From positions 505,710 to 540,777 of the forward strand of contig NZ_HF954537.1 in the NCBI RefSeq assembly GCF_000455225.1: DNA of 35,068 nucleotides. Reading direction: 5' to 3'. The position numbers and the translations under genes were made by a program. This document shows, in pieces, positions 55 through 9,586 of the stretch. Position 1 is the first letter of the stretch. Each line of letters opens with the position of its first letter. The notes below the pieces were generated by a model. The model searched no databases. It saw only the letters and a list, made by a program, of their open reading frames with translations, and was not told the origin of the DNA. Source of the stretch: Megasphaera massiliensis. GTDB lineage: Bacteria > Bacillota > Negativicutes > Veillonellales > Megasphaeraceae.

Positions 55-87
55 AGGACGCTCCCCTTATGTTGAGGCGTCCTTTTT
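55..87 (+). terminator. Terminator-like hairpin on the plus strand
   Basis: AGGACGC (55-61) pairs with GCGTCCT (77-83) and is followed by TTTT on the plus strand. The right arm lies inside the last codons of cbiF, which is on the other strand. It could stop plus-strand transcription entering the operon. No plus-strand gene is visible upstream of it in this window. Confidence 0.35.
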
Positions 88-867
88 AAAATGGTCGCTG
101 TACTGCTGCGATTCGGGCTCGGCCTTACGGCAGGCGTGAGTAAAAGCCGGATGGTACAAGAGACTCCGGTCGTACGTATCGCCGAGGACCCTTCCGACGA
201 CGATGAGGGCCGTCTTCGAAACGCCGTACTGCTGCGCCGTTTCAGCAAGGGTCGCCACCGTGCAGGCATAGACTTTTTCATCGGGCCAGGACGCCTTGTA
301 GACGATGGCTGCCGGCGTGTCGCCGTCGTAACCGCCATGAATGAGCTCTTTTTGCAGGCCCTCTAACAGCGAGGCGCTGAGGAAGATGACCATCGTCGCC
401 TGATGAGCGGCGTAGTCGGCGATTTTCTGCTTGTCCGGAACGGGGGTCCGCCCTTCCATGCGGGTAATGATGACCGACTGGCTGATGCCGGGCAAGGTGT
501 ATTCGGCCTTCAGGGCCGCTGCGGCACCGCAGAAGGAACTGACGCCGGGGACGACGTCGAAGGCGATGTTTTTTTCAGCGAGGATATCCATCTGTTCGCG
601 AATGGCCCCGTAGACCGACGGATCTCCCGTGTGCAGACGGACCGTCATCCAGCCCAGTTTTTCCGCCGTTTCCATAGCGGCCATGACGTCTTCTAAGGTC
701 ATGGCGGCACTGTCTAAGATGACGCAGTCTTTTTTGGCATAGGTCAGTAATTCCGGATTGACCAGGGATCCGGCGTAAATGATTTGATCGGCCTGTTCCA
801 GTAAGGTCTTACCGCGGACCGTAATGAGGTCGACCGCACCGGGACCGGCACCGACAAAATGTATCAT
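67..867 (-). CDS. cbiF: Cobalt-precorrin-4 C11-methyltransferase (CbiF/CobM)
   Basis: This is a 266-aa SAM-dependent tetrapyrrole methylase that methylates C11 of the corrin ring during cobalamin synthesis in the cytoplasm. The N-terminal GAGPGAVDLITVRG loop, the LHTGDPSVYGA stretch and the DVVPGVSSF motif are hallmarks of the family, and the length is typical. The start ATG overlaps the cbiD stop by 4 bp (ATGA), which implies translational coupling. CbiD acts in the anaerobic pathway, so the cobalt-precorrin (CbiF) assignment is preferred over aerobic CobM. It is the last gene of the riboswitch-controlled operon. The remaining corrin-ring genes are not in the window. Confidence 0.93.
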   Translation of the reverse strand: MIHFVGAGPGAVDLITVRGKTLLEQADQIIYAGSLVNPELLTYAKKDCVILDSAAMTLEDVMAAMETAEKLGWMTVRLHTGDPSVYGAIREQMDILAEKNIAFDVVPGVSSFCGAAAALKAEYTLPGISQSVIITRMEGRTPVPDKQKIADYAAHQATMVIFLSASLLEGLQKELIHGGYDGDTPAAIVYKASWPDEKVYACTVATLAETAQQYGVSKTALIVVGRVLGDTYDRSLLYHPAFTHACRKAEPESQQYSDHFKKDAST

Positions 868-2000
868 CGAACTTCCCCTTTCTGATGGACGGCCAATAAG
901 TCTTTGGCCTGTGATGTATACCCGAGGACGCCGTAGACGTTGGAAAAAATAACGGCCCCGGTACGGATGGCACCGTGGGTGCGGGCCTCCAGATAGTGAT
1001 CGATTTTTTGGCAGACAGCTTCCATGACCGGCGTCAAAAGGCCGGCTTCAGAGAGAATCCGGACGGCTTCATCCGTAGTCAGGCTGTCGTAAATGGTTTT
1101 GGCAAGGTCGCGGGAGGCGCCGGCAAAGACGGCTTCTAAGGAAAGGAGCGTCGTCCGGCCGTCGGCATAGCGGGAATGGGTATTCATAATGCCTTGAGCG
1201 ACTTTAATCAATTTCCCGATATGGCCGATGAGGAGGACGTCGGAAAAATCTTTATAAACGGCATAATCAAGCATTTCACCGACGTAGTTGCTGATGGTGA
1301 CTCGCTGGCTGACGTCGAGGCCGAGTTCATCGCGGCTGAAATCGACGCCGTAGTTGCCAAAAAAGGCCAAGAGATGAGACTCTCCGGCGGCTCTTCGCGA
1401 ATCCATTTCGGTGTGAATAGTGTCGACCAGAGCCTGTTCGCTCATGGGATCGACGATGCCTGACGTCCCTAAAATGGACAGGCCGCCGACGATGCCGAGA
1501 CGGGGATTAAAGGTCTTTTGCGCCAAAATTTCCCCACCGGGAATGGAGAGCGTCAGCTTGAGACCGCCCGTGTAACCGCATTCTTTAGCAGCATCCGAAA
1601 GGGCCTCTTCAATCATGCGCCGCGGCACGGGATTGATGGCCCAATCGCCGACGGAACAGGCAAGGCCCGGTTTGGTCACGCGACCAATGCCGGGACCGCC
1701 TGCAACGACCATAGGGCCGGCCGTCTTTTCGACCGTGGCATAGACTAAGATGCCGTCGGTAATATCGGGATCGTCACCGCTTTCCTTGCGAATGGCGCAG
1801 GTTGCCGACGACGGGCCGAAGGAGATGTCTTCGGGCTGCAAGTGGAGCACTTCCCCTTTCGGCGTCGTAAGGGATACGGCATCGACGCGCTTTCCCGTAA
1901 GGACCATGACGGCTGCCGCCTTAGCTGCTGCCGCCGCACAGGATCCCGTCGTATAACCGCAGCGAAGCTTCTTTCCATCTTTTATCGTAAATAAATCCAT
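864..2000 (-). CDS. cbiD: Cobalt-precorrin-5B C1-methyltransferase CbiD
   Basis: This 378-aa protein carries out C1 methylation in anaerobic corrin-ring synthesis. The N-terminal CGYTTGSCAAAAAKAA segment is the diagnostic CbiD signature, and the GGLSILGTSGIVDPMSEQAL and GHIGKLIKVAQGIMNTHS segments also fit the family. The length matches the usual 360-380 aa. The ATG is preceded by AAAGGAGA at good spacing, 12 bp after the btuD stop. Its place behind the uptake genes links new corrin synthesis to corrinoid uptake under one B12-responsive leader. Confidence 0.95.
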   Translation of the reverse strand: MDLFTIKDGKKLRCGYTTGSCAAAAAKAAAVMVLTGKRVDAVSLTTPKGEVLHLQPEDISFGPSSATCAIRKESGDDPDITDGILVYATVEKTAGPMVVAGGPGIGRVTKPGLACSVGDWAINPVPRRMIEEALSDAAKECGYTGGLKLTLSIPGGEILAQKTFNPRLGIVGGLSILGTSGIVDPMSEQALVDTIHTEMDSRRAAGESHLLAFFGNYGVDFSRDELGLDVSQRVTISNYVGEMLDYAVYKDFSDVLLIGHIGKLIKVAQGIMNTHSRYADGRTTLLSLEAVFAGASRDLAKTIYDSLTTDEAVRILSEAGLLTPVMEAVCQKIDHYLEARTHGAIRTGAVIFSNVYGVLGYTSQAKDLLAVHQKGEVR

Positions 2001-2012
2001 GCCTGTCTCCTT

Positions 2013-2807
2013 TCAAGCCTCGCCGTCGGGCAGGACGTCTCTGGGCACGATGAAGGGCCGGCCGTCTTTCGTCCGGACAACTTCGGCGTCGATGGCAAAG
2101 ACCCGGCGCAGCCTGTCCGGTGTCAAGACGTCTTGCGGGGCCCCGGTCGAAACGATGGCCCCCTCTTTCATCATAAGCACTTCATCGGCATATTGGTAAG
2201 CCTGGTTCATATCGTGAAGGACGATGATCACCGTTCGCCCCCATGTTTCGTTAATCTCACGAAGGAGAGATAGAATCCGCAATTGATGGCGGACGTCGAG
2301 ATAGGTCGTCGGCTCGTCGAGGAGGAGAATGGACGCATCCTGAGCCAATAAGACGGCCAGCCAGGCCCGCTGCTGCTCGCCGCCGGAAAGGTGCTGCATG
2401 GCCCTTTTTTCATAGCCCCGAAGACCGACGGCGTCGATGGCACGATGAATGGCTGCCTGATCGTCCTTCGTCAGCGGCGACAAGAGCTTTCGATAAGGAA
2501 AACGCCCCATAGCCACTAAGTCGGCGACGGGCACGTCTTGAGGAAGGTCGTGAGACTGGGTCAAGAAGGCGATTTCCCGCGACAAGGCTTTACGCGAAAA
2601 GGACCGGACGTCGCGGCCGAAAAGGTCGATAGCACCGCCGGAAATAGGGATCATGCAGTTTATGGCTTTGAGGAAGGTACTCTTGCCGCAGCCATTGGGG
2701 CCGACGATGGCCGTAATCTTGCCCTTCGGAAGGGACGCCATCATATCGTGAAGGATGGTCTTGCCGCCCCGCTCGACGACGAGATGTTTGATGGTAATGG
2801 CATCCAC
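2013..2807 (-). CDS. btuD: Corrinoid/iron-type ABC transporter ATP-binding protein (BtuD/FecE family)
   Basis: The 264-aa ATPase of an importer for vitamin B12 or related corrinoids acts on the inner face of the cytoplasmic membrane. Walker A is GPNGCGKST (residues 36-44), the Q-loop glutamine is at about 84, the signature LSGGE is at 140-144 and Walker B ILLLDEP is at 160-166, followed by a conserved H-loop (VLHDMNQ). It lies 3 bp after btuC. The family also serves siderophores and heme. Corrinoid specificity is inferred from the upstream cobalamin riboswitch and the cbiD/cbiF neighbours. Confidence 0.92.
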   Translation of the reverse strand: MDAITIKHLVVERGGKTILHDMMASLPKGKITAIVGPNGCGKSTFLKAINCMIPISGGAIDLFGRDVRSFSRKALSREIAFLTQSHDLPQDVPVADLVAMGRFPYRKLLSPLTKDDQAAIHRAIDAVGLRGYEKRAMQHLSGGEQQRAWLAVLLAQDASILLLDEPTTYLDVRHQLRILSLLREINETWGRTVIIVLHDMNQAYQYADEVLMMKEGAIVSTGAPQDVLTPDRLRRVFAIDAEVVRTKDGRPFIVPRDVLPDGEA

Positions 2808-2810
2808 GGC

Positions 2811-3812
2811 TCACACTTCCTTTCGCAGGAGAAATAAGAAAAAGGGCGCTCCCAAGGAGGCGATGATGATGCCCACGGGAAGTTCCGCCGGTGCCAAGAG
2901 GAGTCGGGCTGCCGTATCGCTCAGAGTCACCGTCGCCGCTCCGAAAAGGGCCGCGCCGGGAATGATATAGCGGTAATCCGTGCCGATTAAGAGGCGCACC
3001 ATGTGGGGCACGATGAGTCCGACGAAGCCTAAGAGGCCGGCGACACTGACGGCACTGGCTGCGAGAAGGGCGGCAATGGCCGTAAGGCCCAGGCGGGCCC
3101 TTTCGACGTTGAGGCCCAGGCTGCGGGCCATGTCGTCACCGAGTTGGAGAAGGTTCAGGTAGTACGCGCCGATAAAGGCCAAGACGAAGCCGGCAGCAGC
3201 ATAGGGCGTAATGACGGACACGTCTTTCCAGCTGCTGGCCGCCAAGCCCCCGACCATCCACAATAAGGCACCGTGGACGCGGTCGCTGTAAAAGACGAGG
3301 ATTCCTGAAATGATGGCTCCCAGGAAGGCCGACACGGCGACGCCGGCCAAGATGATGCGGACGACCTTGATGCCGTCCTTCCAAGCCAAGAAGTAGATGG
3401 CTCCGGCAGCGGCCATGGCGCCGACAAAGGAGACGGGCGTCATCAAAAAGGCGTACGACGGGACGACGATGAGGACGATGAGGCCGAAGAGACCGGCACC
3501 GGACGAGATGCCGATGATATGGGGATCGGCCAGGGGATTTCGCATGACGGCCTGCAAAATGGCTCCCGACAGGGCCAAATTAGCCCCGACCAAAGCCCCC
3601 GTAAGGGTCCTCGGCAGACGGATGTTCCAAATGATTTGGTCCGTCGTTCCCCCGCCGGGCTGCCATAAACTTCGGACGACGTCCGACGCCGTAATGGCCG
3701 CCGCCCCCTGCATGACCGACAGCAAGATGCCGGCCGCCGCCAAGACGGCGAAGACGATGAGCATGAGCCAGCGCCAACCCGTTCGTTCCCGGCGCTGAAA
3801 AAATCTATTCAT
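2811..3812 (-). CDS. btuC: FecCD/BtuC-family ABC transporter permease
   Basis: This 333-aa polytopic inner-membrane permease has about ten hydrophobic segments. Family hallmarks include NIRLPRTLTGALVGANLALSG near residues 64-84, GLLGFVGLIVPHMVRLLIG and the ELPVGIIIASLGAPFFLFLL ending. It forms the transmembrane channel of the B12/corrinoid importer with BtuD and receives substrate from BtuF. The start overlaps the btuF stop by 8 bp. Specificity is inferred from the riboswitch and neighbours. Confidence 0.92.
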   Translation of the reverse strand: MNRFFQRRERTGWRWLMLIVFAVLAAAGILLSVMQGAAAITASDVVRSLWQPGGGTTDQIIWNIRLPRTLTGALVGANLALSGAILQAVMRNPLADPHIIGISSGAGLFGLIVLIVVPSYAFLMTPVSFVGAMAAAGAIYFLAWKDGIKVVRIILAGVAVSAFLGAIISGILVFYSDRVHGALLWMVGGLAASSWKDVSVITPYAAAGFVLAFIGAYYLNLLQLGDDMARSLGLNVERARLGLTAIAALLAASAVSVAGLLGFVGLIVPHMVRLLIGTDYRYIIPGAALFGAATVTLSDTAARLLLAPAELPVGIIIASLGAPFFLFLLRKEV

Positions 3813-4758
3813 GAGGAACCACTCCCGGATAGACTAAGTTTGCCATATACCCTACGGCCTTGGGATAGTCGAGGCCGGGATTGAGGAGGAAATACCGTTC
3901 GGGCAGGATATAGAAACGCCCCGATTGGACGGCTTTCAAGGAAGCCCAAGCCCGATTGCTTTCGATGTCGCCTTTGATGCGCTTTTCGATCTTGTCCGAC
4001 GATCCCATAGAAGTCAGGAAAATGACGTCGGGATTGGCTTCGACAAGGCTTTCCATACTGTAAGGAATGCGGTTATTTTCGCTTCCTGCCGGTGCCGCAG
4101 CGATGTTCTGCAAGTGAAGCAGGTCGGCAATGCCGCCGGCAATGCTGGTCGGAAGTTCCAGCGACACGGCACTGGGCGTGGCATGAATGATGGCAATGCG
4201 CAGGCCCTGTTTGGGCACAGCATCGGTGATGGCTTTAATTTCTGTATCGAGCTTTTCATCGACGGCTTTGGCCTGCTCTTCTTTGCCGTAGACCCGGCCC
4301 ATGACGTCCAGATTGTGTTTGACGTCGTCATAAGTCTTGGTGCGCAGCAAGATAACAGGAATGCCGCTGTCTTCGAGCTGGGCCGCCAATTTTTCATGGT
4401 GGTCCGTACTGCCGATGACGACGTCGGGCTCAAGGGCCGTCACTTTTTCCAGGCTGACGCTGTAGACCGGGCCCACGTCGGGCACGTCTTTATACTTTTC
4501 CGGAAGGGCTGCGTCTTCCGACTTGATGGCGGCCCTTCCAACGAGACTGCCGTCGAGGGCATCGGCAAAGTTTAGGAGCGACGTCGACAAGACGACGACG
4601 CGCTGCGGTTTCTGCGGCAAGGTAACGGATTTGCCCCGGTCATCGGTGATGACGGCATAATTTTCCCCGGATGCCTTTTCTTGAGACGTCCCTTGGGGAC
4701 CGCAGCCGGCCAGCAGGAACAGACAAAGGACGAGCAGACATAAGCCAAATTTTTTCAC
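3805..4758 (-). CDS. btuF: Periplasmic corrinoid-binding lipoprotein (BtuF family)
   Basis: This 317-aa substrate-binding protein has a lipoprotein signal peptide: positive MKK, a hydrophobic core, and lipobox LAGC with the lipidated Cys at residue 19. The rest is a class III periplasmic-binding fold (Peripla_BP_2), with an RVVVLSTSLLNFADAL start and the helix-backbone pattern of BtuF/FhuD proteins (VTALEPDVVIGS, LVEANPDVIFLTSMG). It captures substrate delivered through the outer-membrane receptor encoded just upstream and hands it to BtuCD. The gap to the receptor stop is 15 bp. Confidence 0.9.
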   Translation of the reverse strand: MKKFGLCLLVLCLFLLAGCGPQGTSQEKASGENYAVITDDRGKSVTLPQKPQRVVVLSTSLLNFADALDGSLVGRAAIKSEDAALPEKYKDVPDVGPVYSVSLEKVTALEPDVVIGSTDHHEKLAAQLEDSGIPVILLRTKTYDDVKHNLDVMGRVYGKEEQAKAVDEKLDTEIKAITDAVPKQGLRIAIIHATPSAVSLELPTSIAGGIADLLHLQNIAAAPAGSENNRIPYSMESLVEANPDVIFLTSMGSSDKIEKRIKGDIESNRAWASLKAVQSGRFYILPERYFLLNPGLDYPKAVGYMANLVYPGVVPHE

Positions 4759-4773: not shown

Positions 4774-7182
4774 CTAGAATTTCTGACGGATCCCGACCTG
4801 CCAATTTCTCCCGGCAGCCGGATAGTTATGGTATAAATCGTAGCCGGCATTGTTGATGTTGGCCACTTTGACATACACGGTCGTGTTTTCATCGGGCGAA
4901 TAGGACGCGCTGCCGTTCCAGACGACGTAGGAATTGTTGCTGTAATACGTGTCGTTGCGCCCCGTTCCGGCCGTCACGTCGACGTTGGCCTGCCACTTGC
5001 CCTGATGGTAATGGAGACCGGCGCGGTAGCCGTTAGGCTGATTGTACGTTTCATCAAAGCCTAAGCCGTCTCCCGTATCGACTTTGGTGTGGATGTAGGA
5101 ATAGCCCAATTCATAATCCCACTTGTCGTTGATGGTCTGCTTGAGGGACAGTTCAAAGCCCCGTTTATCTTCTTCATTGAGGTTTTCCGGTTCCCGCGGC
5201 GTGACGGCCCGGTTCCAACGAATGACGTTCGCTAAATCACTGTGGAAGACGCTGCCTTCGAGAAGGGTCTTAGGCCCCATGCGATACTGGAATCCCAGGG
5301 TCTGAGTGTACCCCGTTTCGGGCTGCAAATCCTCATTGCCCATGGCCGTAATCTTGCCGCGGGACGTCGTCACATAGAACTGATCGTTCAGGCGCGGCGG
5401 CGAAAAGACGCGGCTCCACGACGCATAGACGTTGAAGTCGTCATTGGCCTTATAATTGACGGCCAACCGCGGCGTCTGGTGGACTCCGTACGTGCTGTTG
5501 TCATCGAGGCGCAGGCCCGGCGTGACCGTCAACTTCCCGAAAGTCATGGCGTCTTCGGCGTAAAAAGCCAGATTATGGCGTTTCTTGTCGATGTAATTGG
5601 CCTCGTAATTGGTGCCCATATCTTCCGTCCATTCGGCGCCGGCCGTGACGTGATGGGCGCCGAGGTGCCAGTTGTTCTGCCATTCAAAGCCCTGGGTGCG
5701 GGTAAAATAGTGGTTGGTCCAATAGGTCCGCTGGTAGTCGTTGAAGTAACGCAGGAACCCGGGCTGAGCCTCATTTTTCTTAAAATTATAGGTAAGGCTG
5801 TAATTATTGATGAGCCGCTCGATGGGCTTATTGGCACTGAGGTACCAGCCCGAGAGGCGTTCTTTTTGAAGGGCTTTCGGCAGCGACGACGAATAAGAAG
5901 CAAGGAAGGTCGAACCGTGGCCGTGATAATCCTGATGGTAAGCCTTAAAGGTCAACGACGTGCCGTCGGTCAAGTCCTGATCGAGGCGCAGGGACAAGGA
6001 CTCTTTGGCAATGTCGCCGCGGGACTTGTCGGCATTGAGGCCATTGGGAAAGGCGTAATACTTTCGCCGTTCCATGTCGCCGCTGATGAGCCAGCTGGTC
6101 TTGCCCGAACGGCCGCTGTTGGTCAGGGTGTAGCCGTGCATGCCCCACGATCCGGTGTAGGCATCGAGAGACGACTCGTTGCGGTCGCCCTTTTTGGTGA
6201 CGATATTGATGACGCCGCCCACGGCCCCGCTGCCGTAGCGGACGGAACCGCTGCCCTTGGTGACTTCAATGCGCTCAATAGCACCGACACCGGGGAGGTT
6301 TGCCAAATCGACGCTCCCCCGCCCGTAGCCCGATCCCTGGGCATTGGCCAGACTCTGACCGTCGACGAGGATCAAGACCCGGTCGTCACCGTTCAATTTG
6401 ACGTAGGACGAAATGCCCGGCACCATCTCATTGACGGTAACGCCCGTGACCCGCTGGAGGGCCTGCCGGACCGACGTATCGCGGTGTTCGTCCATCTCCT
6501 TGGCGGCAATGATGGTCGTATTTGATTGACTGGCCTGTACGGGAGGAATGGCGGGCTCTTTCGGTTCATTTACTTGGGCTTCCGATAACTTGTTAGGGAG
6601 TAAGGCCTTGACGCTGTCAAAAAAATTGGCAACTCCGTCGGGAACGTGAATGGATCCTGCCGGCGCCATAGGATCCTTCGTCCCGTGACCGGCCGCCCGT
6701 CTTCCCGAAGGCCCGGTCTTACCATGATGGTGACGCGGTCCTGATGTTTTTCCCTCAGGAGACGAAACGGGCTGACCGGAATTTCTCGCCGCTTCTGCCC
6801 TTCCTTTTTCGTCGGAAGATCCCTGTCGCGATTCATCGTTGGCGGCGGCATACGTAAGGGCGTCCGGCGTCAGGGGCGTCGCGTCGACAGTTGGCGTTCC
6901 TTCTTCGTTCGGAGCCTTATCCGACGTCGAGGATACGACTTCTTGTTCATCGTAATCGCCGCTTCCGTCGCGGCTGACAGCGTCCATCCCATCGGCATCG
7001 TTCCCACCGGCACCGGCCATATCGCCGGCATTATAAATCATGACGTCGGTTACATTGGGCTGACGCGAATAGTGCTGAAGGACCGTAAAGAAACCGCCGG
7101 CAGCCAGGCCGACATAGACGGCGGCGTGGAGGGAGACGGAAAATCCGGCAGCAATACGCCCTTTCTTCTTCCCCCACCTCAC
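4774..7182 (-). CDS. Hybrid TonB-anchor / TonB-dependent outer-membrane receptor (BtuB-like)
   Basis: The 802-aa protein has three parts. Residues 1-40 are a positively charged start plus one hydrophobic segment carrying SVSLH (S15, H19), equivalent to the S-x3-H motif of the TonB membrane anchor that contacts ExbB/ExbD. Residues about 45-215 are a Gly/Ser/Asp/Pro-rich, probably disordered linker. Residues about 220-335 are a receptor plug (RVLILVDGQSLAN, IERIEVTKGSGSVRYGSGA, GGVINIVTKKG), and about 340-802 form a beta-barrel ending in phenylalanine, the usual outer-membrane signal. No TonB C-terminal domain is visible. The start is GTG in a GTGA overlap with the exbD stop, the place where tonB normally lies. 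The riboswitch implies corrinoid uptake. A conventional reading, a long-signal receptor whose leader only resembles TonB, is possible but explains neither the linker nor the motif. Confidence 0.88.
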   Translation of the reverse strand: MRWGKKKGRIAAGFSVSLHAAVYVGLAAGGFFTVLQHYSRQPNVTDVMIYNAGDMAGAGGNDADGMDAVSRDGSGDYDEQEVVSSTSDKAPNEEGTPTVDATPLTPDALTYAAANDESRQGSSDEKGRAEAARNSGQPVSSPEGKTSGPRHHHGKTGPSGRRAAGHGTKDPMAPAGSIHVPDGVANFFDSVKALLPNKLSEAQVNEPKEPAIPPVQASQSNTTIIAAKEMDEHRDTSVRQALQRVTGVTVNEMVPGISSYVKLNGDDRVLILVDGQSLANAQGSGYGRGSVDLANLPGVGAIERIEVTKGSGSVRYGSGAVGGVINIVTKKGDRNESSLDAYTGSWGMHGYTLTNSGRSGKTSWLISGDMERRKYYAFPNGLNADKSRGDIAKESLSLRLDQDLTDGTSLTFKAYHQDYHGHGSTFLASYSSSLPKALQKERLSGWYLSANKPIERLINNYSLTYNFKKNEAQPGFLRYFNDYQRTYWTNHYFTRTQGFEWQNNWHLGAHHVTAGAEWTEDMGTNYEANYIDKKRHNLAFYAEDAMTFGKLTVTPGLRLDDNSTYGVHQTPRLAVNYKANDDFNVYASWSRVFSPPRLNDQFYVTTSRGKITAMGNEDLQPETGYTQTLGFQYRMGPKTLLEGSVFHSDLANVIRWNRAVTPREPENLNEEDKRGFELSLKQTINDKWDYELGYSYIHTKVDTGDGLGFDETYNQPNGYRAGLHYHQGKWQANVDVTAGTGRNDTYYSNNSYVVWNGSASYSPDENTTVYVKVANINNAGYDLYHNYPAAGRNWQVGIRQKF

Positions 7183-7592
7183 GGCTGAGCCCCACTGTCG
7201 GCGACGAGGCCGATGCGGTTCACACCGACTTTCTTAAAGGCATCCAACACGGCCATGACGCGACCGTAATCGACGTCTTGGTCGGCATAGAGGATGACGC
7301 TGAAAGCCTTGTCTTCCCCTTGCCGAGCCCGGGCCGAAGCCATGAGGGCCTCGCGATCGATTGCCTTGCCATTGAGCCACAGGGTACCGTCTTTTTTCAA
7401 GGTGACGGCATACTGGGATGACGGCGCGTCTTTTGCCTCGGCTGCCACGGGCAACTGGACGCCTAAACTGTGCATGTCCACCATGGATAAGGACGACATC
7501 ATGAAGAAGACCAAGAGGAAAAACATGATATCGATCATGGGGATGATCATGATGGAAGGCTTTTCAAAATCCCGTAATTGACGTAGCCGCAT
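7179..7592 (-). CDS. exbD: Biopolymer transport protein ExbD
   Basis: This 137-aa inner-membrane protein has one N-terminal transmembrane helix (about 13-35). It carries the conserved Asp of the family in IIPMIDIMFFLLVFFMM, the proton-coupling residue, followed by a periplasmic domain. With ExbB it forms the motor that energises TonB-dependent transport. The gene begins 1 bp after exbB and overlaps the receptor by 4 bp, so the motor and its hybrid client are probably made together. Confidence 0.95.
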   Translation of the reverse strand: MRLRQLRDFEKPSIMIIPMIDIMFFLLVFFMMSSLSMVDMHSLGVQLPVAAEAKDAPSSQYAVTLKKDGTLWLNGKAIDREALMASARARQGEDKAFSVILYADQDVDYGRVMAVLDAFKKVGVNRIGLVADSGAQP

Positions 7593-7593
7593 C

Positions 7594-8208
7594 TCACTGC
7601 CCTGCTTTCTGGTCCATCGTTTCCATCGCCGAAAAACACAGCTCCATGTCGGTAATGATCCGGTCGAGGCGCTGAGTAAAATAAGAATGAATAATCAAGG
7701 CCAAAACAGCGACGCAAAGGCCGAAAGCCGTGGCAATGAGGGCTTCGCCGATACCGCCCGTAATGGCGATAGCCTGTCCGGACTGGACGTTAAAAACACT
7801 GAAGGCGCGGATCATGCCGCTGATCGTCCCGAGAAGTCCTAAGAGGGGCGCCAAGGTGACGATGACGCTCAAATAATAGAGGTGACTCCGAAGGCGGGAC
7901 ACGAAAATCCCCGACTGCATTTCGACAAAGGCCTTCCATTCAGTCCCTCCCTGACCGTCAAAAACTTCGGTCAACATGAGGGGCAGCCCGCCGGAACTGT
8001 CGGCTGCAAGGGAGCGCGCCGCTTCCGTCTTATGGACTTTCATATAGGTATAAAAACGATTGGCAAAAGCCTTGCCGGCATCCATCTGGGTAAAAAACAT
8101 GGCCCTCTCAATGCCAATATACACCGCAAAGAGGGAGCAGGCCAATAACAGATACATGACCGGACCGCCTTGCTGAAACAACTGAAAACCATTGATCATC
8201 GCTTCCAT
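7594..8208 (-). CDS. exbB: Biopolymer transport protein ExbB (MotA/TolQ/ExbB family)
   Basis: This is about 204 aa with three transmembrane helices: MYLLLACSLFAVYIGIE, a middle segment VIVTLAPLLGLLGTISGM, and GEALIATAFGLCVAVLAL. The GE of the last segment matches the conserved glutamate of ExbB helix 3. It forms the pentameric stator around ExbD. The ATG at 8206-8208 is chosen because AGGAAAGGGG lies just upstream. A TTG 36 bp further up (8244) is in frame, but that extension would contain the ribosome binding site. It is the first gene after the riboswitch terminator. Confidence 0.93.
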   Translation of the reverse strand: MEAMINGFQLFQQGGPVMYLLLACSLFAVYIGIERAMFFTQMDAGKAFANRFYTYMKVHKTEAARSLAADSSGGLPLMLTEVFDGQGGTEWKAFVEMQSGIFVSRLRSHLYYLSVIVTLAPLLGLLGTISGMIRAFSVFNVQSGQAIAITGGIGEALIATAFGLCVAVLALIIHSYFTQRLDRIITDMELCFSAMETMDQKAGQ

Positions 8209-8261
8209 GGTACGAATAAACCCCTTTCCTGTAAGGACCTGCAAGAGAAGGGCTGCAAAGA

Positions 8262-8290: not shown

Positions 8291-8339
8291 CCGAATATGC
8301 TCCGTACAATCTCCTTCCCATCGCTCGCAGGTCTATCGG

Positions 8340-8505
8340 TGATTATCCGTCAGGCAGTTCTTCTGGCTTGGTTTCATAGCCAAAGCTGCGCCTTCCCATA
8401 CAAAAACGTACAGTGACATCATGCAGCCTGGCTCCACCTCACAGCGGCGGGACCGCGCCGGAATTGAACCGGCTTCTCTATTAAGTCTGAGACACCTGAC
8501 CTATT
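8340..8505 (-). promoter_or_regulatory. Cobalamin riboswitch
   Basis: On the minus strand the segment carries the B12 box AAGCCAGAAGAACTGCCT (8352-8369), which closely follows the rAGYCMGgAgaCCkGCcd consensus. It also has a GCCGGTTCAATTCCGGC hairpin followed by GCGGTCCCGCCGCTGTGA, matching the aptamer core. High adenosylcobalamin should favour the downstream terminator and shut off uptake and synthesis genes. Confidence 0.92.
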
Positions 8506-8511
8506 CATTAT

Positions 8512-8540
8512 ATTATATCGTTTTTACTATAGCATGACAA
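8512..8540 (-). promoter_or_regulatory. Sigma-70-type promoter of the cobalamin operon
   Basis: On the minus strand TTGTCA (8535-8540) and TATAAT (8512-8517) are separated by exactly 17 bp, placing the start just ahead of the riboswitch. Confidence 0.8.
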
Positions 8541-8682
8541 ATAGAAGACTGTCAACGAAGGGCCTCATGAGAAGAAAAGTTGAAAAAGGGCAGAAAAACA
8601 TTGTCATAAGCAAGCCTTAACACATGTACTCATCAGGAGTGCGATGCAAACAGGTAGACATTTTCATCTATATAGTCGAGTT

Positions 8683-9238
8683 TTTTCAATCCACGCACTC
8701 CGAAGAGTGCGACAACGGATCATTATGGCAATCAATTGCTACTCATTGTTTCAATCCACGCACCCCTAAGGGTGCGACTTACAAGCCAGACTCCGTTCTG
8801 TACTTTTTTATGTTTCAACCCACGCACCCATGAAGGGTGCGACGATATCTTTCGTACTCTTATATCTATCTCTATATGTTTCAATCCACGCACCCATGAA
8901 GGGTGCGACGCTTCTTCAAGCAGCCGTTGCCGATATTCGCCGGGTTTCAATCCACGCACCCATGAAGGGTGCGACGATTAATCCATACCTCTGAACGTCG
9001 TCATCAATGGTTTCAATCCACGCACCCATGAAGGGTGCGACGAGTACGTGCCCTGAGGGTAGTAGCGGCGCACGGGGTTTCAATCCACGCACCCATGAAG
9101 GGTGCGACGCGGCGATTGCCCGTATCTATCGGCCAGGCTGTGTTTCAATCCACGCACCCATGAAGGGTGCGACGATAAGAGTATAAAGTATAGAGCTATA
9201 AGAGATGTTTCAATCCACGCACCCATGAAGGGTGCGAC
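8683..9238 (-). CRISPR. Type I-C-like CRISPR array, 9 repeats, 8 spacers
   Basis: Repeats of 31-32 bp start at 8683, 8748, 8812, 8879, 8944, 9010, 9077, 9142 and 9207, with spacers of 33-35 bp. In the minus direction the repeat begins GTCGCACCC and ends GTGGATTGAAAC, the type I-C pattern. The six repeats at 8879-9238 are identical. The three at the low-coordinate end vary progressively, which marks that end as the old trailer and the 9239 side as the leader. No cas gene is in the window. Repeat 8683 keeps a perfect stem (GCACTC/GAGTGC) despite its changes. Confidence 0.97.
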
Positions 9239-9586
9239 AGCAAAAGTGTTTTCTTACAGTCACTTTTGTTTGCATCTATGGGGATAGGCCCCCACAGACA
9301 CGTTTTTTCTTACTCGTATAGGGGATTTACTCAAATTTCCCCGGCTTTCATCATGATTTTTAATCGACAAAAAGAATGTTCACTATACTTTGGCACTGCG
9401 TACGTTTTCACGGCATGCTTTCCGCCATAGATTTATATGATTTCCTATGCTCCGAGCATCCCCCGGCTCAATGGTTATTTCCCGTTACTTTTAATTTCAT
9501 TATAGCACCATTTTACTTAAAACCATAATATCGTCCCGCCGCGTCCATAACGCCCTTAAGGCTGCAATCCTAATTTTTCCAACCAT
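9239..9586 (-). promoter_or_regulatory. Probable leader of the I-C array and gene-free spacer
   Basis: This AT-rich gene-free stretch lies on the conserved-repeat side of the array and is the expected position of the leader. The 40 bp next to the first repeat contain an inverted repeat (CAAAAGTG near 9241 with CACTTTTG near 9262). No coding sequence with a ribosome binding site is visible. The exact leader length cannot be set from sequence alone. Confidence 0.5.

Follow-up and report, generated by a model that had tools for sequence, protein, structure and literature searches.

The operon and its fused receptor gene

The stretch of DNA analyzed here (the window) comprised 35,068 nucleotides of Megasphaera massiliensis contig NZ_HF954537.1. 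Toward its start lies an operon ordered as a cobalamin riboswitch followed by exbB, exbD, a fusion gene, btuFCD, cbiD, and cbiF. The fusion gene joins a TonB-type membrane anchor to a TonB-dependent receptor. Features are given in window coordinates, with residues numbered along the fusion protein.

8336..8514 (-): cobalamin riboswitch (RF00174, 109.5 bits), upstream of exbB
7594..8244 (-): exbB (Pfam MotA_ExbB); start codon uncertain, homologues aligning mostly from about residue 13
7179..7592 (-): exbD (Pfam ExbD), overlapping the fusion start in GTGA
4774..7182 (-): fusion gene (TonB anchor, linker, plug, and barrel), 802 codons, with intact orthologues in four further genomes
7066..7155 (-): uncharged hydrophobic stretch of the TonB-type membrane anchor, residues 10 to 39, aligning with free TonB anchors of the family
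7126..7140 (-): S15-x3-H19 motif of the anchor
7030..7053 (-): D-box-like strand VTDVMIYN, residues 44 to 51, at the ExbD-binding position of TonB
6529..7029 (-): low-complexity linker up to the plug, residues 52 to 218
6538..6702 (-): pre-plug segment, residues 161 to 215, conserved among five fusions and with no counterpart found in free TonBs or free receptors
6211..6537 (-): plug domain (Pfam PF07715), residues 216 to 324
4777..6138 (-): beta-barrel, residues 349 to 802, BtuB/Cir-like (PF00593 match at 349 to 776)
3805..4758 (-): btuF-like gene for a substrate-binding protein of corrinoid/iron/heme type, under every NCBIfam cut-off and named by context
2811..3812 (-): btuC-like permease gene, best match BtuC, under the cut-off
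2013..2807 (-): btuD-like ATPase gene, under the cut-offs among the matches listed and named by context
864..2000 (-): cbiD, cobalt-precorrin-5B methyltransferase (TIGR00312, over the cut-off)
67..867 (-): cbiF/cobM, precorrin-4 methyltransferase (TIGR01465, over the cut-off)

The fusion gene (window 4774 to 7182, minus strand) was a single open frame from a GTG start to the stop, with phenylalanine as the last residue. Compared to Pfam at E ≤ 1, the predicted protein contained only a Plug domain (residues 216 to 324) and a receptor barrel (residues 349 to 776), both over the cut-off; a TonB C-terminal domain was not found with PF03544 at that threshold or with TIGR01352. The frame check and Pfam therefore bore out the initial annotation, which had described an uninterrupted 802-codon frame with a complete plug and barrel, a terminal phenylalanine, and no TonB C-terminal domain, and its GTGA overlap with exbD was confirmed by the coordinates. 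The long disordered linker of about 175 residues that it had proposed was likewise found, with approximately 180 residues separating residue 39, at which the uncharged helix ends, from the start of the plug (residue 219). Residues 61 to 218 consisted of 78% A, G, S, P, E, D, K, Q, R, and T. Homology to free receptors began at QSNTT (residues 219 to 223), the plug start. AlphaFold2 models of four fusions (the window and three related loci) had a mean pLDDT of 27 and were set aside as evidence on the fusion.

The pre-plug segment (residues 161 to 215, window 6538 to 6702) was shared among the fusions as an HVPD.VAD-like sequence for which no relatives were found. In profile comparisons of this segment with the family TonBs and four free-receptor N termini, nothing but the QSNTT plug start was matched.

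Among 23 NCBIfam families, the receptor part of the window protein was most similar to TIGR01779 (B12 receptor), at 159.5 bits and below the cut-off of 599.7. The fusion profile aligned to BtuB structures over residues 212 to 787, and Cir scored slightly higher, in separate pieces. The receptor part thus appears to be a corrinoid receptor of the BtuB type, controlled by a cobalamin riboswitch, with corrinoid as a putative substrate supported by the riboswitch and the neighboring genes. Each of the eight related loci scanned, of which four are fusion loci, carried the riboswitch. A CRISPR-like array with at least nine repeats at a spacing of 65 to 67 nucleotides (window 8681 to 9239) adjoined the riboswitch.

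Distribution and origin of the fusion

Intact fusions were found in 5 of 17 family genomes (G000, the window genome, and G001, G003, G007, and G010), all within a genus of 15 members, and the other four proteins were 87, 71, 72, and 68% identical to that of the window. Four further members of the genus (G006, G008, G009, and G012) and one of a sister genus (G015) carried exbB-exbD followed by separate tonB and receptor genes; the fusion thus occupies the slot in which relatives carry tonB, as had been proposed. G016 contained exbB-exbD-tonB and then a receptor start at the contig end, and exbB-exbD, a TonB, and a receptor were all present in G011. In G002, G004, G005, and G014, a receptor was found without a neighboring exbBD-tonB in the stretches fetched, and G013 (82% complete) had no receptor match. 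The orthologous receptor, btuF, and btuC of G014 (L045:5087-8988, minus strand) were each split over two frames, by decay or assembly error.

The separate operons of G006, G008, G009, and G012 encode homologues of the anchor and the receptor, arranged as in the fusion, but differ in having two genes, a TonB C-terminal domain, and, in three of the four, a TonB-box-like motif. As in the fusion operon, btuFCD, cbiD, and cbiF followed in G006, G008, and G012 (the G009 contig ends), and the riboswitch was present in all three of these operons, which were those scanned. In a receptor tree of 14 sequences (leaving out the receptors of G014 and G016, the latter truncated where its contig ends, and L052, the second receptor of G012), the five fusions formed one side of a branch with support of 98/97, which is consistent with a single origin.

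A class-wide search of 380 genomes with the anchor profile produced matches in 222 genomes at E ≤ 1. Among the matches listed at E ≤ 1e-4, only the five fusions sat in frames longer than 360 amino acids; matches were listed to an E value of about 0.07, and divergent anchors would escape such a search. Four weaker matches among those listed, in frames longer than 500 amino acids, contained no receptor by eye. Three of these (G078, G177, and G064) were transporter-like rather than anchor-receptor fusions, and the fourth (G305) resembled a large surface protein in its first 300 and last 200 residues and was also rejected. The co-occurrence of anchor, linker, and barrel in one protein, which the initial annotation had raised for Negativicutes, was found in five genomes of one clade of one genus and, among the matches listed, nowhere else in the class.

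Conservation of the anchor and components of the Ton system

In an alignment of 11 anchors (five fusions and six free TonBs), S15, H19, V47, and Y50 were invariant, which upheld the reading of the N terminus as a TonB-like helix with S15 and H19. The tonB of G011 was left out of the TonB alignments and profiles. By eye, the window protein partly followed the alternating D-box pattern given in the available portion of PMC10907165. When a profile of the six family TonBs was compared to the fusions, the match started at the anchor and ran on into the linker as far as position 161 to 170 of 261, with the C-terminal domain unmatched; the homology of the fusions to the TonB linker is weak, since the linker part is of low complexity.

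Among 10 fusion pairs, residues 1 to 36 were 67 to 97% identical, compared to 75 to 92% for the receptor, with the anchor below the receptor in 9 of 10; residues 37 to 55, including the D-box-like strand, were 42 to 95% identical. In 28 pairs of free receptors (leaving out that of G011), which are more diverged as a set than the fusions, the first 25 residues were 12 to 56% identical, compared to 42 to 82% for the receptor, and the closest pair had 44% identity at the N terminus and 82% in the receptor.

TonB and its receptors usually make contact through the TonB C-terminal domain and the receptor's TonB box. By eye, a TonB box followed the signal peptide in the free receptors. With one regular expression, written after inspection of some free-receptor N termini, TonB-box-like motifs were detected in 20 of the 26 free receptors searched, several of them near-copies of each other, and in none of the five fusions, in which a longer stretch was searched. 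The free receptors were taken from loci L010 to L034 and L050 to L052, leaving out the G014 receptor L016 (broken N terminus) and frames shorter than 450 amino acids. The fusion is thus without both sides of the TonB-receptor contact, having neither a TonB C-terminal domain nor a recognizable TonB box.

Two fusion genomes, G003 (a 170-contig draft) and G007 (one contig), each contained one Plug, that of the fusion, one ExbD, and one ExbB. No TonB C-terminal domain was found in either genome by PF03544 (E ≤ 1) or TIGR01352 (E ≤ 10), and the family TonB profile (E ≤ 10) matched nothing but the fusion. G001 and G010 each had three plugs, two ExbDs, and one free TonB, located in the region of other receptors. 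In the window genome there were four plugs, two strong ExbD matches, and a third ExbD match under the cut-off. Next to the second exbBD pair of this genome, and after it, lies a tonB-like gene (L050:12959-14083, minus strand) that encodes an SLVIH anchor and is interrupted by a stretch of N; Pfam found no domain in the readable part. A free TonB is therefore likely in the window genome, and the lack of a detected TonB C-terminal domain there was not used as evidence, because of the interrupted gene. Three of the five fusion species probably own a free TonB. At L050:7171-9060 (minus strand), another receptor gene of the window genome was broken by a stop (one TGA; two frames).

If the N terminus were a signal peptide, or if the linker were cut after export, the mature protein would be a conventional barrel of the outer membrane that carries a long, disordered N-terminal tail. 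Signal peptidase might accept the small residues (LAAGG) of the helix, and the linker is rich in disorder. The best 19-residue hydrophobicity of the fused anchor (1.6 to 1.9) was closer to that of free-receptor N termini (1.1 to 2.0) than to that of free TonBs (2.1 to 2.6), and the length of the uncharged stretch (30 residues, compared to 28 to 35 in TonBs) was the only TonB-like trait in this comparison. However, a similar LAA(G/S)G stretch occurs in four of the six aligned free TonBs, the four invariant residues are kept in every anchor, and in its degree of conservation the anchor almost matches the receptor, whereas the N termini of free receptors do not. In G003 or G007, moreover, a cut receptor would lack a recognizable TonB box and would have to be driven without any detectable TonB C-terminal domain, yet exbBD is retained. 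At the level of sequence, hydrophobicity alone does not decide the matter, and the conservation of the anchor argues against an ordinary signal peptide; cleavage is regarded as unlikely.

Dependence of the fusion on a free TonB in trans, from another ExbBD-TonB set, is less probable still. The free TonBs of G001 and G010 and the interrupted tonB-like anchor beside the second exbBD of the window genome would be in keeping with it. Against it stand the five fusions without a TonB-box-like motif and the two genomes, one of them a single contig, in which no TonB C-terminal domain was found.

The covalent chain could also be real but serve mainly as a static membrane-to-membrane tether or as an aid to assembly, in which case pulling would not drive transport. 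Such a chain would, by inference, physically join the membranes; however, in the window as in each of the four other fusion loci, the fusion is accompanied by exbB and exbD, the transporter genes, and the cobalamin riboswitch, and little weight is given to this reading.

Evolutionary rates were compared as NG86 dN/dS in five fusion pairs, in which several dS values exceeded 1 and are rough. The ratios were 0.05 to 0.18 for residues 2 to 60, 0.06 to 0.19 for the plug, 0.08 to 0.14 for the barrel, 0.11 to 0.35 for the pre-plug segment, and 0.32 to 0.70 for the variable linker (four computable pairs). The same uninterrupted layout in five genomes, together with the low ratio at residues 2 to 60, places the architecture beyond chance. 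An assembly or sequencing error (including the indel considered in the initial annotation, which the intact fusions in five genomes exclude) or a decaying chance fusion, which the window genome by itself could not exclude, has a negligible probability given those genomes and the low dN/dS in anchor, plug, and barrel.

Proposed mechanism and relation to known systems

Judged from sequence and gene context, the gene probably encodes a single-chain, trans-envelope, self-energized corrinoid receptor pulled by ExbBD via a covalent tether. That the motor pulls the plug through such a tether had been suggested in the initial annotation, and the suggestion is supported by the position in the tonB slot, the kept anchor, and the lack of both a TonB C-terminal domain and a recognizable TonB box. 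It is also supported by the two genomes without a detectable TonB C-terminal domain, in which the fusion is the sole TonB-dependent receptor.

We infer that the full-length chain resides in both membranes, with an uncleaved anchor, contact with ExbBD, transmission of force, and a corrinoid substrate. The N-terminal helix would remain in the inner membrane, docked on ExbB through S15 and H19, and the strand right after it would be held by the ExbD dimer, like the D-box of TonB. A linker of about 150 to 185 residues would span the periplasm and enter the first plug strand of the outer-membrane BtuB-type barrel. The proton-driven ExbBD motor would then pull the linker, which is the plug's own N terminus, and partly unfold the plug, and the bound corrinoid would pass to the btuFCD-type transporter. 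A covalent cord would make both the TonB C-terminal domain and the TonB box dispensable, and neither was recognized in the fusion. A stretched residue measures 0.31 to 0.34 nm and the periplasm approximately 20 to 25 nm; fully stretched, a linker of roughly 150 to 185 residues could reach approximately 45 to 60 nm, more than the periplasm.

Individual steps have precedents in the portions of the cited papers that were available. The TonB anchor contacts ExbB and the D-box of TonB is bound by the ExbD dimer (PMC10907165), and TonB(H20A) is inactive (PMC11658791). In BtuB, force applied via the Ton box unfolds approximately 50 plug residues, about half of the plug, and preventing plug unfolding lowers B12-dependent growth (PMC5413942).

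The fusion resembles TonB of exbB-exbD-tonB operons in its position after exbD, S-x3-H anchor, strand at the D-box position, and long disordered linker but is without the C-terminal domain and runs on into a receptor. With BtuB (TIGR01779) it shares the plug and barrel, the cobalamin riboswitch, and btuFCD-type genes; it differs in scoring under the cut-off, in having no recognizable TonB box, and in being joined to a motor anchor. In the available part of PMC12204202, motor-driven force transducers of the vWA type likewise combine an SHLS-type anchor and a disordered linker with a cargo other than the TonB C-terminal domain, beside motor genes. Those transducers end in a soluble vWA domain, whereas the cargo of the fusion is the outer-membrane receptor itself. 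The parts are already known, and no report of a natural anchor-receptor fusion of this kind was found among the open-licence PubMed Central articles listed.

How TonB energizes outer-membrane receptors, whether by pulling, rotation, or repeated binding and release, is unsettled. It is quite likely that the fusion represents a natural one-polypeptide transporter across both membranes, with an inner-membrane motor anchor, an outer-membrane gated barrel, and no contact between a TonB C-terminal domain and a TonB box. ExbB, ExbD, and the fused receptor would then make up the entire Ton system of two species, with the conserved pre-plug segment as a new element at the site of the former contact. 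If so, binding and release at that contact would not be indispensable, and force on the N terminus of the plug may suffice. The fusion would provide a motor-to-receptor chain with fixed coupling, usable for structural and single-molecule work, and it prompts the question of how a single polypeptide comes to be exported and assembled into both membranes. It also suggests when such chains can arise, in that a cell that has few receptors has no need of a shared TonB.

Long receptor frames of another kind were also observed. Plug-bearing frames of 1,490 to 1,850 amino acids were present in several genus members. A frame of 1,667 amino acids (L051:7429-12432, minus strand) contained a plug and receptor barrel at residues 62 to 874, followed by approximately 790 residues that had a subthreshold match to a porin family (PF16930, E = 2.4e-4) toward their end; this chain may comprise two barrels.
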